A stretch of DNA of 64,000 nucleotides, from contig NZ_FORU01000002.1 of the NCBI RefSeq assembly GCF_900114085.1, positions 1 to 64,000 of the forward strand, read 5' to 3'. The first letter of the stretch is position 1. Each line of letters starts with the position of its first letter. A model generated the notes under the pieces. That model searched no databases, was not told the origin of the DNA, and worked only from the letters and a program-made list of their open reading frames with translations. Below are positions 51,660 to 54,748 of this stretch, piece by piece. The position numbers and the translations under genes were made by a program. The DNA comes from Myroides guanonis (GTDB lineage Bacteria; Bacteroidota; Bacteroidia; Flavobacteriales; Flavobacteriaceae).

Positions 51660-52283
51660 CTAGAACTCTATGATTCTATGTCTTAAAGCATACAATACCA
51701 CACCAACAAAATTTTTTGAATTAGTCTTACAGATTAAATTCCCTCGAAAGGCCTCAACCGTCCTGATACTTATCCCCAACTCTACGGCAATTTCCTTAGC
51801 ACTAAATTCCTGTGCAGACAATCGAATAATCTGAACCTCACGTAAAGTAAAATCTTTCACCAATTCATCATCAGTAAGATTAGCTAAAACATGAGCAACA
51901 TCCTTATCTAAATAAAAGCCATTAACAAATATACTCTCTAAAGCTTTTTTTAATATATGAGGGTCAATTTTTTTTGTCAGGTAACCATCAGCACCTAGGT
52001 GCATAATCTTTTGTATAGAATCCTTATCATTCAACAAAGTCAAAACGACTATTTTTATATCAGGATAAAACTCCCTTAAATACATCCCTGTTTCAAACCC
52101 ATCCATTACAGGCATTTGTAAATCTAGAAGTACTACATCTACATTTAACTTCCCTACTTTTCTCAACAGTTGTAATCCATTCTCAGCTTCCAACACCACT
52201 TCCATATTATCAAAATGGTCAATAAGAAACTTTAAACTTTTTCTAAATAAAGTATGATCATCTGCTAAGGCTATTTGTATCAT
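51660..52283 (-). CDS. NarL/FixJ-type response regulator
   Basis: A response regulator of about 207 residues. The receiver domain (1-120) has the acidic pair in ALADDHTLFRKSL, the phospho-acceptor Asp54 in VVLLDLQMPVMDGFETG and the Thr/Lys positions in VVLTLLND and YLTKKID. A LuxR-type helix-turn-helix (about 145-205: LTLREVQIIRLSAQEFSAKEIAVELGISIRTVEAFR in pieces) follows. The ATG at 52283 overlaps the kinase stop codon by four bases (ATGA), so they are coupled. It would activate or repress genes when phosphorylated by that kinase; its targets are not visible. Confidence 0.92.
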   Translation of the reverse strand: MIQIALADDHTLFRKSLKFLIDHFDNMEVVLEAENGLQLLRKVGKLNVDVVLLDLQMPVMDGFETGMYLREFYPDIKIVVLTLLNDKDSIQKIMHLGADGYLTKKIDPHILKKALESIFVNGFYLDKDVAHVLANLTDDELVKDFTLREVQIIRLSAQEFSAKEIAVELGISIRTVEAFRGNLICKTNSKNFVGVVLYALRHRIIEF

Positions 52284-53047
52284 CCTTTTATCTTTTTTCT
52301 TATAAAAATACAATTACCACTATCACTTGGTAATTGAACTAAAATAGCTTTCAAATTAGATAATCTCGCTTTTATATTCCTAATTCCCATACCTTTTGCT
52401 GTTTTTGATGCTTTAAAAAAATCGTAAGAACACCCATCATCTAAAAAACGAAAAACATATTCTCCTTCAATACAATCAACACTAAACTTTATACTTGAAG
52501 CCTTTCCATGTTTTAAAACATTTTCTGTCAACTCTTGTATACATCTATATAGCTCATAAGATTCTGAAGTTGTTAACAGCAATCCTTCTGAAAAATACCT
52601 AGCTTCTACTCTCACTTTATATGTTTTCTCTACCCTATTAAAAAAATCTTTCAAAACCGCTTGTAAATCTTCAGTTTCCAACAAAGGAGGCATCAAGTTA
52701 TAACTAACCCTTTGAACCTCATCAATTGTAATCCCTAAAGCAGTCTTAATTTCACAAAGTAACTGTACATTCTCTATCTGTCGATTTTTTAATTCTAATA
52801 CCCCAACTAAATTAAGAATAGCACTAATATCTCCACTTATACCATCATGTAAATCAGCAGCCACCCTATTTCTCTCCGTTTTTTCAGCCTCTAAAGTGGC
52901 TTTCAATCCAACTTCTGCTTCATGCTGCTTAACTATATAAAATCTCCGTTGATAAAATACAGCTAACAACACAATAGATAGAGCCATAAAGGCCATAAAT
53001 AAGGTGCCCAACCAAAAAACCCACTTTAAGTCATTTTCATTCTCCAT
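52280..53047 (-). CDS. HisKA_3-type sensor histidine kinase
   Basis: A kinase of about 255 residues, with one membrane helix near the N-terminus (about 9-32) and no periplasmic sensor domain. It has a HisKA_3 dimerisation domain with the phospho-acceptor His67 in VAADLHDGISGDISAIL and a HATPase_c domain (LTENVLKHGKASSI, FLDDGCSY, GMGIRNIKARL). Its own sensor part is missing, so the signal probably comes from the overlapping upstream membrane protein. The start is the ATG at 53047 (MENENDLKW), inside the end of that upstream gene. Confidence 0.92.
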   Translation of the reverse strand: MENENDLKWVFWLGTLFMAFMALSIVLLAVFYQRRFYIVKQHEAEVGLKATLEAEKTERNRVAADLHDGISGDISAILNLVGVLELKNRQIENVQLLCEIKTALGITIDEVQRVSYNLMPPLLETEDLQAVLKDFFNRVEKTYKVRVEARYFSEGLLLTTSESYELYRCIQELTENVLKHGKASSIKFSVDCIEGEYVFRFLDDGCSYDFFKASKTAKGMGIRNIKARLSNLKAILVQLPSDSGNCIFIRKKIKG

Positions 53048-53670
53048 ACTCCAATACTTAACATAATTCTTAAAAACAAAGTAGCTAAAACATTCACCAA
53101 CCAATAATCATAAAAATACAAAGATGTCTCGACAAGAAAACCGCTCAGAGAAAACAGAAAAAAAGTACTTGCACAATAAATCAAGTAACCCGACACAAAA
53201 TAAAAATCAGCATTCTTCCATAAATCTTTTATTTCCTTATTCAAAAACAGTTTTTTAAACCAAGAAAAAGAAGAAACTATAACCAATAAAACTATCGGTA
53301 TCTGACTTATAAACAAGGATAAAAAAATATTTTCAGTTCGAAAAAACATCCAAGAAATCAAATAAAAAAACACAAAAAAAACAGCAAAGAAAATTTCAAA
53401 CTCTTGCTTCTTTTTAATAAAGTTCAATTCTCTATAATAATAAAACAAAGCTGTAAATTCTAATACTGCATAAATTTGAAACCAATAACTAGAACCTATT
53501 ATCGAATAAATCACCCCAATTTGTTCATAAATCGTAGCGATAAAAGTCAAAGTTATAAATGGAAAAACTATCTCTTTCCCTAAATTTAACTTCGTTCCTT
53601 TCCTCAACAAATACAAACAAATTGGGATAATACCAGAATATAATGCAATAAGATACAGAACCTTATACAA
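53026..53670 (-). CDS. Multi-pass membrane protein, probable sensory partner
   Basis: The 214-residue product is almost wholly hydrophobic, with six or seven membrane segments (LYLIALYSGIIPICLYLL, VFPFITLTFIATIYEQIGV, FFAVFFVFFYLISWMFF, LSLFISQIPIVLLVIV, FVSGYLIYCASTFFLFSLSG and others). No catalytic motif is seen. It lies between a small cytosolic protein and a kinase that lacks a sensor. It overlaps the upstream gene by eight bases and the kinase start by 22. The natural reading is a membrane sensor or scaffold for the kinase, which is inference. Confidence 0.7.
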   Translation of the reverse strand: MYKVLYLIALYSGIIPICLYLLRKGTKLNLGKEIVFPFITLTFIATIYEQIGVIYSIIGSSYWFQIYAVLEFTALFYYYRELNFIKKKQEFEIFFAVFFVFFYLISWMFFRTENIFLSLFISQIPIVLLVIVSSFSWFKKLFLNKEIKDLWKNADFYFVSGYLIYCASTFFLFSLSGFLVETSLYFYDYWLVNVLATLFLRIMLSIGVWRMKMT

Positions 53671-53983
53671 TATTGTATGACCTAATTAAAGCACTATTAA
53701 CAGGACAATAAGAAGGACAGACATTTAAACGTTCTAGTATAACACCCTGTGTCATATCCTCTCCATCATCATCGATTCCCACTAACACTAAATTACTATT
53801 GCCGTTTTCAGCGTCAATTCCATTATAAATCCTTACTCCCTCACACCCCACTTGCTGTATAATATCTAATAATTTATCCTTGCTAACAGCATAAGCTATA
53901 TTTCCACTTGGAAAGCTTTCCTGATACTCATGTGTAAATTCAATAGCTTCAGCTAACGTGATAATTTCTCCATTGTTTTTCAT
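53663..53983 (-). CDS. Conserved small protein leading the kinase operon
   Basis: The 106-residue product begins MKNNGEIITLAEAIEFTHEYQ and has a mixed alpha/beta pattern with VGCEGVRIYNGIDAENGNSNLVLVGIDDDG in pieces and a Cys-rich end (NVCPSYCPVNSALI). There is no signal peptide or membrane helix. I believe related small proteins occur beside similar kinase genes in flavobacteria, but I cannot give a family name. The CPxxCP pair could bind metal or respond to redox. The start is the ATG at 53983, placed just after the candidate promoter, rather than an upstream codon at 54148. Confidence 0.65.
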   Translation of the reverse strand: MKNNGEIITLAEAIEFTHEYQESFPSGNIAYAVSKDKLLDIIQQVGCEGVRIYNGIDAENGNSNLVLVGIDDDGEDMTQGVILERLNVCPSYCPVNSALIRSYNIV

Positions 53984-54010
53984 AATATTTTTTTTTAAAA
54001 TTTTGTATCT

Positions 54011-54041
54011 CAAAAATGAGAAATTAAATCCTAATTCGCAA
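54011..54041 (-). promoter_or_regulatory. Probable promoter of the kinase operon
   Basis: On minus, TTG (54041-54039), a 20-base spacer and CATTTTTG (54018-54011) match the Bacteroidota consensus with one mismatch, leaving a leader of about 20 bases before the first ATG. Confidence 0.45.
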
Positions 54042-54203
54042 TACGTAGAAATACTATACAGAGTGTTAAAATTAAAGACTAATAACATATTCTTAGGAAT
54101 CACGCCTATTTCAAGACAATTACCTATTTGAAATTTTAACATAATCAATCTAAAAAAAATAAATTTTTACAAAATGGACCAAACTACCTTCTAAAAACCA
54201 AGG

Positions 54204-54484
54204 ATAATTCAAAAAGAACAACAGCCAATCGATGGAAAATACATCTCAAAAGGTTTCTACCCTAGTGCTTTAACTAAAGACTTCCCTTTAAAAGGAAAAT
54301 CCGTAAAACTACATGTACAATATCGTCGTCGGACAGATAAACAAGATAGATAAAAGTACGTAATTGGAATGTGACTGTTAAAGGGACACTAATGACCACA
54401 GAGCTTTCTGAGTTTAACAAAAAAGTCGATATTATAATTCTTAGCTTTAAAGCTATAAGTATTTTCCTTGCACTCTATCTATAG
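54204..54484 (+). pseudogene. Decayed ISAon1-type transposase N-terminal fragment
   Basis: Two overlapping frames together resemble the N-terminal region of ISAon1-family transposases. The first, 54204-54353, reads IIQKEQQPIDGKYISKGFYP, then TKDFPLKGKSVKLHV, and ends in TAA. The second, from 54356 in another frame, reads RNWNVTVKGTLMTTELSEF and ends in TAG at 54484. The family usually shows a similar "SKGF...DFP..G..V.L...RR" segment, then "W...AKGTRMT.EF". The frameshift, the stop and the missing C-terminal part show it is dead. It is an inference by pattern, and a database comparison would be needed. Confidence 0.5.
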
Positions 54485-54520
54485 TGCATCTATAGTGTAT
54501 CTATACTCCATCTATAGAAT
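54477..54520 (+). repeat. 11-bp tandem repeat array (ATCTATAGTGY type)
   Basis: Four head-to-tail 11-base units begin at 54477, 54488, 54499 and 54510, each ATCTATAnnnn. Part of the array is then mirrored by inverted units further on. Confidence 0.75.
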
Positions 54521-54548
54521 AAGCCTTTTCTATAGATGGAGTATAGAT
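54499..54548. repeat. 21-bp perfect inverted repeat with 8-base loop
   Basis: 54499-54519 is exactly complementary to 54528-54548. The arms include two of the tandem units, so direct and inverted copies are interleaved. The structure could be an element end, a recombination relic or a stable hairpin; it does not look like a terminator because no T-run follows. Confidence 0.8.
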
Positions 54549-54748
54549 GGAATATAGTCAGTATATAGACACACCTAAAACAATTTTCGCTCTCCGAAAC
54601 TCAAAAAATCAAACAAAAAATCACAAAGGTTCCAATTTTTCAACAATCCCTCCAAGCTTTTGAAAACAGAAATTATTTGATACATTTAACTAATTCATTT
54701 TATCTAAACTAGACAAACGATACTTTTCATATATTAAACACCTCAACT
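54549..54748. other. AT-rich intergenic sequence
   Basis: No gene is visible. A TACTTTTC before the next gene (about 54720) resembles a degenerate -7 box. Confidence 0.3.

Follow-up and report, generated by a model that had tools for sequence, protein, structure and literature searches.

We describe four overlapping genes of Myroides guanonis, encoding a small protein (SP), a membrane protein (MP), a HisKA_3 histidine kinase (HK) and a NarL-type response regulator (RR), which recur together across Bacteroidota. On balance we favour the reading that SP-MP-HK-RR form one conserved four-component unit, in which SP and MP would be the input of a kinase that has no sensor domain and RR would bind palindromes with the core GTA-N4-TAC. 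The analysis yields two nameless protein families kept with the kinase from Flavobacterium to distant Bacteroidota, together with a candidate operator and a first candidate target cluster; a kinase type that looks blind to signals thereby gains a unit and testable partners. If the reading is right, this is a widespread Bacteroidota sensory system, whose genes are at present annotated as hypothetical proteins (SP and MP) and as a generic two-component pair (HK and RR). We found no published description of the set in the open-access literature, which does not establish its absence from print.

Organization of the operon

The window, the whole stretch of 64,000 nucleotides analysed (contig NZ_FORU01000002.1, positions 1 to 64,000), is part of a 3.14 Mb genome. 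Four minus-strand open reading frames were called in it, spanning 51660-53983:

53663-53983, minus strand: SP, 106 aa, ATG start, the operon's first gene; soluble; no family above cut-off
53026-53670, minus strand: MP, 214 aa, TTG start within SP; polytopic membrane protein
52280-53047, minus strand: HK, 255 aa from ATG; HisKA_3 histidine kinase
51660-52283, minus strand: RR, 207 aa from ATG; NarL/LuxR-type response regulator

SP and MP overlap by 8 bases, MP and HK by 22, and HK and RR by 4; the HK frame reaches further upstream, to a TTG at 53104. All the frames of the overlapping four-gene operon proposed in the original prediction, with its overlaps of 4-22 bases, are therefore present, and the arrangement is far from chance, because it is repeated in 76 of 84 further SP loci. 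The single candidate promoter of that prediction found no statistical support (22 sigma-70-like sites versus 18.6 ± 4.6 in shuffled sequences), and no exact Bacteroidetes-type site (TTTG/TANNTTTG) lies before the operon. Hydropathy, motif and gene calls were made with simple purpose-written scripts.

HK scores above the Pfam cut-off for HisKA_3 and below it for HATPase_c, and RR has Response_reg and GerE domains. The hallmarks of a HisKA_3/NarL two-component pair are in place, with a conserved His and an N box in HK and a phospho-acceptor Asp in RR. Hydrophobicity and Pfam both bore out the predicted single N-terminal membrane helix and the lack of a sensor domain. The genome has five HisKA_3 kinases, among which HK is the only small one and the only one with an MP; the remaining four occupy frames of 655-776 residues. 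The window's HK has a G1 box that reads DDGCSY, where DDGxGF is usual, and DDGIPF, DDGCSY or similar boxes occur in HKs of the window's clade (the window, L053-L057, L059, L074, L109, L110).

SP and MP are conserved proteins without a named family

Neither SP nor MP belongs to a Pfam or NCBIfam family above cut-off, and profile searches gave no convincing PDB relative of either. The system was predicted to be poorly described, and this description stands; nor did a Pfam or NCBIfam match above cut-off place the two proteins in an unrelated pathway. An alignment of 28 SPs revealed the conserved pattern ITLxxA...GVRxYxGxD...LVxVGVD...CPxxC. A simple pattern recognized the CPxxC tail in 68 of 88 SPs, one Cys in 10 and neither in 10 (the L141 tail, CPGSPGC, was scored as lacking the Cys motif); as the tail is not universal, Cys chemistry is not essential everywhere. 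The window's SP had been said to end in CPSYCP: the motif is indeed near the C-terminus, but it is not the very end, which is CPSYCPVNSALIRSYNIV. A membrane anchor or lipoprotein signal was found in 14 of the 88 sequences, a count that leaves out L048 (an over-long frame), and the window's SP has neither an export signal nor an anchor. In the window's clade, clade A, SP is the best conserved component (median identity 0.42 versus 0.39, 0.36 and 0.27) and MP, at 0.27, the least.

MP has five membrane segments at a strict hydropathy threshold and seven helices in a low-confidence model (mean pLDDT 50), compatible with the 6-7 segments originally predicted. The model of SP was also poor (mean pLDDT 48); both were built on four-sequence alignments, confined to window proteins and fetched related loci. 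Profile comparison related two divergent groups of MPs (probability 95%, E 2.7e-8). The window's genome has a single MP copy, in this operon.

A likeness of SP to HisK_sensor (PF18698) was considered and rejected as chance: 6 of 28 SPs matched weakly (best E 0.001, 19.9 bits versus a cut-off of 27.3), and in genomes matches were scattered, with 0 of 60 above cut-off.

SP and MP travel with the kinase

A single-sequence search found SP relatives in 27 of 150 related genomes, its own included, and a profile found them in 55 of the 150; of 395 genomes drawn across Bacteroidota, 48 have SP and 80 have MP, the wider of the two. Gene context was counted at 84 SP loci, comprising the single-sequence matches in the 150 related genomes and the matches in the 395 phylum genomes, with the window excluded and the loci found solely by profile in the 150 genomes left out. 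A HisKA_3-type kinase lies downstream on the same strand at 77 of these loci, at 76 with RR as well. MP was recognized by profile at 73 and a membrane frame takes its place at 5 more; L127, L135 and L154 have an MP or MP-like frame on inspection.

Seven SP loci have no HisKA_3-type kinase (L118, L140, L123, L116, L145, L070 and L071). By eye, three of them have in its place, behind MP, a longer frame that resembles another kinase class but starts with a membrane helix like that of HK: an apparent PAS-containing kinase in L118 and L140, and a 684-residue frame in L123. L116 is at a contig edge and L145 has SP-MP without a kinase. In L070 and L071 the SP homologue is an orphan: it has a membrane segment at its N-terminus, and its neighbourhood contains no kinase.

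The same association was seen from the side of MP. At 20 MP loci unmarked by the first SP profile (higher-scoring MP matches without SP nearby, hence not a random sample), a match to the HK profile lies on the same strand in 19, weak in L184, and is lacking in L191. When the SP profile was improved and its threshold loosened, the gene immediately preceding MP was marked at 11 of the 20 loci, with scores of only ~10 bits in L188 and L196, and an unmarked small frame precedes MP in L178, L189, L193, L194 and L195, two of these frames ending in a CPP motif. In two loci fetched via MP the profile marks no SP: L074 is MP-HK-RR without SP, and in L075 a lipoprotein encoded upstream shows an SP-like motif. 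SP and MP are thus not mostly found without the kinase, which is present at 77 of 84 SP loci and, by profile match, at 19 of the 20 sampled MP loci. The predicted entry of the signal through MP, SP or both survived the tests.

SP and MP are also linked to each other. In L114 and L127 the order is SP-MP-SP-MP-kinase, SP and MP having been duplicated as pairs; L118 and L126 have one SP and three MPs. Across 71 complete sets, SP and MP distances showed a partial correlation, with RR removed, of 0.34, a value that none of 300 permutations reached, versus 0.20 for SP and HK given RR; between SP and RR after removal of HK it was 0.09.

These observations bear on two other readings of the input proteins. 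MP could be a LiaF/VraT-like modulator that restrains HK, with SP an effector or target, not a sensor, and envelope stress acting on MP or HK as the stimulus. LiaFSR and VraTSR have the same layout (accessory membrane protein, HisKA_3 kinase, NarL regulator), and SP is the best conserved of the four in clade A, as an effector could be. However, SP is duplicated together with MP and co-varies more strongly with it than with HK, and no family match ties MP to the LiaF or VraT models; we consider this reading unlikely. We give even less credit to a quorum-sensing reading modelled on agr or ComQXPA, which we regard as very improbable: SP would be the precursor from which a secreted signal is made, and MP would process or receive that signal. 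An operon that combines a small protein and a membrane protein with a kinase and a NarL-type regulator would suit such a quorum system, as would the C-terminal tail CPxxC(D)xxSPL conserved in many SPs. Yet SP is conserved over its full length and is the slowest-evolving part in clade A, anchors or lipoprotein signals occur in 14 of the 88 SPs, L131 has a two-domain SP, and the Cys motif is missing in 10 of 88 by the simple pattern.

A candidate operator upstream of SP

A candidate operator upstream of SP is the palindrome GTA-N4-TAC, extended as AATACGTA-N4-TACGTATT, which is shared by intergenic sequences that separate SP from divergently oriented tail-collar genes. Of the 84 upstream regions of SP, each 200 nt long (a set that includes the window and omits one locus), 32 contain the core and 52 do not, versus 4.6 on average and 11 at most in shuffled sequences; other spacings from 0 to 12 were found in 1-6 of the 84. 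Upstream of other genes of the same loci the core is present in 55 of 500 regions, of which the gene of an exported ~420-residue protein contributes 16 of 26, other next genes 4 of 27 and the rest 35 of 447. The rate before SP is nearly five-fold that of the rest (Fisher p 1.9e-11), and the exported gene is similarly enriched (Fisher p 7.7e-11), both p-values being too small because the loci are related. Among the rest, spacing 4 (35 of 447) exceeds the other spacings (12-22), so other regulators may use GTA-N4-TAC. At the 20 more distant MP loci the core was not enriched (3 of 20).

Two candidate sites lie in the intergenic region before the window's SP:

54040-54059, core 54045-54054, no strand: candidate operator 1, core 71 to 62 nt upstream of the ATG of SP
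54298-54317, core 54303-54312, no strand: candidate operator 2, same intergenic region before SP

Among the 22 cores of the 64 kb window, candidate operator 2 has the best extended score (12/16) and candidate operator 1 ties for second (11/16). Site 54298 was outside the stretch used for motif discovery, and site 54040 was among the 39 sites used. If RR binds this pair of sites, the operon would be autoregulated. Allowing as many as 3 mismatches, the long palindrome matches 40 places in the whole genome and its reversed control 28, so most of these matches are noise.

Several other repeats were seen. Perfect long palindromes precede a membrane-protein-like gene just upstream of SP in L056 and L109, and a DUF1761-type gene in L056, L109 and L110. 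Near-identical palindromes with a different core, AATACCTA-N4-TAGGTATT, occur at C18:21490 and C31:65987 of G000 (L219 and L220), near a gene resembling an exported protein and another that we take to resemble a catalase gene. A hairpin of 11-base units (TATAGATGGAG) lies at window positions 54484-54574 (folding z-score -7.6), with nine further intergenic copies in the genome and 55 pattern matches versus 9 in a reversed control. These eleven-base upstream repeats were rejected as an operator, since a dispersed element of ten copies is not specific.

Candidate target genes

The exported ~420-residue protein whose gene carries the core in 16 of 26 copies is encoded next to RR in Flavobacterium and has no Pfam family. 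The best palindrome of the window's genome, with one mismatch of 16, is at C24:53567-53586, ~80-90 nt before a MauE gene. On contig C24 this gene is followed by two DUF6520-like genes, one of which was tested by Pfam (24.4 bits versus a cut-off of 25.4); genes for SusC, SusD and an S9 peptidase are neighbours of this set. In L048 and L050 a homologous MauE set lies directly behind RR, with a core 66 nt before MauE; the MauE proteins of these loci and of the window's genome are 36% identical over 478 residues. MauE and DUF6520 are also near RR in L135, as are MauE, an AhpC/TSA-type protein and a SusD relative in L137; no palindrome scoring at least 10 was found in these MauE regions (L233 and L234).

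Phage tail-collar genes were rejected as a general target. They adjoin the operon at 9 of the 84 SP loci and 1 of the 20 MP loci. The window's genome contains no tail-collar gene, which rules them out as its target. PF07484-like tail-collar genes beside the operon, mostly divergent from SP, were noted in L061, L072, L116, L117 and L122, and further ones in L134, L144, L153, L154 and L190 (the last by eye). In several Flavobacterium loci the tail-collar gene is followed by a periplasmic-binding-like protein, a formyltransferase, and an SprB-repeat or other secreted protein.

GTA-N4-TAC might instead belong to a more general Bacteroidota regulator, with this operon one of many targets and the link to MauE a coincidence. 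We take this seriously, though it is not the outcome we expect. The excess of spacing 4 in unrelated upstream regions would fit it, as would the lack of enrichment in the distant loci and the weak genome-wide excess, but the nearly five-fold rate before SP argues for a link to the operon. So does the position of the genome's best site, which precedes a homologue of the gene adjoining RR in L048 and L050, itself with a site.

Proposed mechanism

Returning to the four-component unit, we infer from the sequences a signal path that starts at SP. SP would bind or report the stimulus and act on MP, and MP would relay the signal, inside the membrane, to HK by way of the latter's one N-terminal helix. 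HK would then phosphorylate RR, and RR would bind palindromes with the core GTA-N4-TAC. The MauE and DUF6520 genes of contig C24, by the cluster of SusC, SusD and S9 peptidase, would be a target of RR. A bolder proposal, which we regard as a long shot, names the stimulus: SP, through its CPxxC, and MP might sense the thiol state or supply of small exported Cys proteins, and RR might drive the redox membrane protein MauE, the exported DUF6520 proteins, the SusC/SusD importer and the S9 peptidase, forming a phylum-wide secretion-and-recapture loop.

Comparison with known systems

As an anti-phage defence system the operon was rejected, PADLOC giving no match for SP, MP or HK and one for RR only at E above 0.005. 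The agr and ComQXPA systems have a four-gene layout with a small protein, a membrane protein, a kinase and a regulator, and the ComA box has N4 spacing. SP-MP-HK-RR resembles them in this layout, and the GTA-N4-TAC palindrome resembles the ComA box in its spacing. In contrast to a fast-evolving secreted peptide precursor, SP is a conserved domain, the most conserved in clade A, and is sometimes membrane-anchored.

The 7TM receptors of the 7TMR-DISM and LytS type also have a 7TM-like module feeding a histidine kinase, but there the module is fused to signalling domains, whereas MP is a separate protein. Matches to 7TMR-DISM (PF07695) were weak and limited to 3 of 12 clade B MPs, the best reaching 24.3 bits (E 3.4e-5) versus a cut-off of 29; none of 16 clade A MPs, the window's included, matched at E 0.1.

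LiaFSR and VraTSR of Firmicutes are three-component systems of an accessory membrane protein, a HisKA_3 kinase and a NarL regulator. They are the nearest functional likeness of SP-MP-HK-RR, in which these three kinds of component are likewise encoded together. MP, with no Pfam or NCBIfam family and a profile that has no PDB relative, was not placed in the LiaF or VraT family. The known systems belong to another phylum, and here SP is an additional, fourth conserved protein, soluble or anchored.
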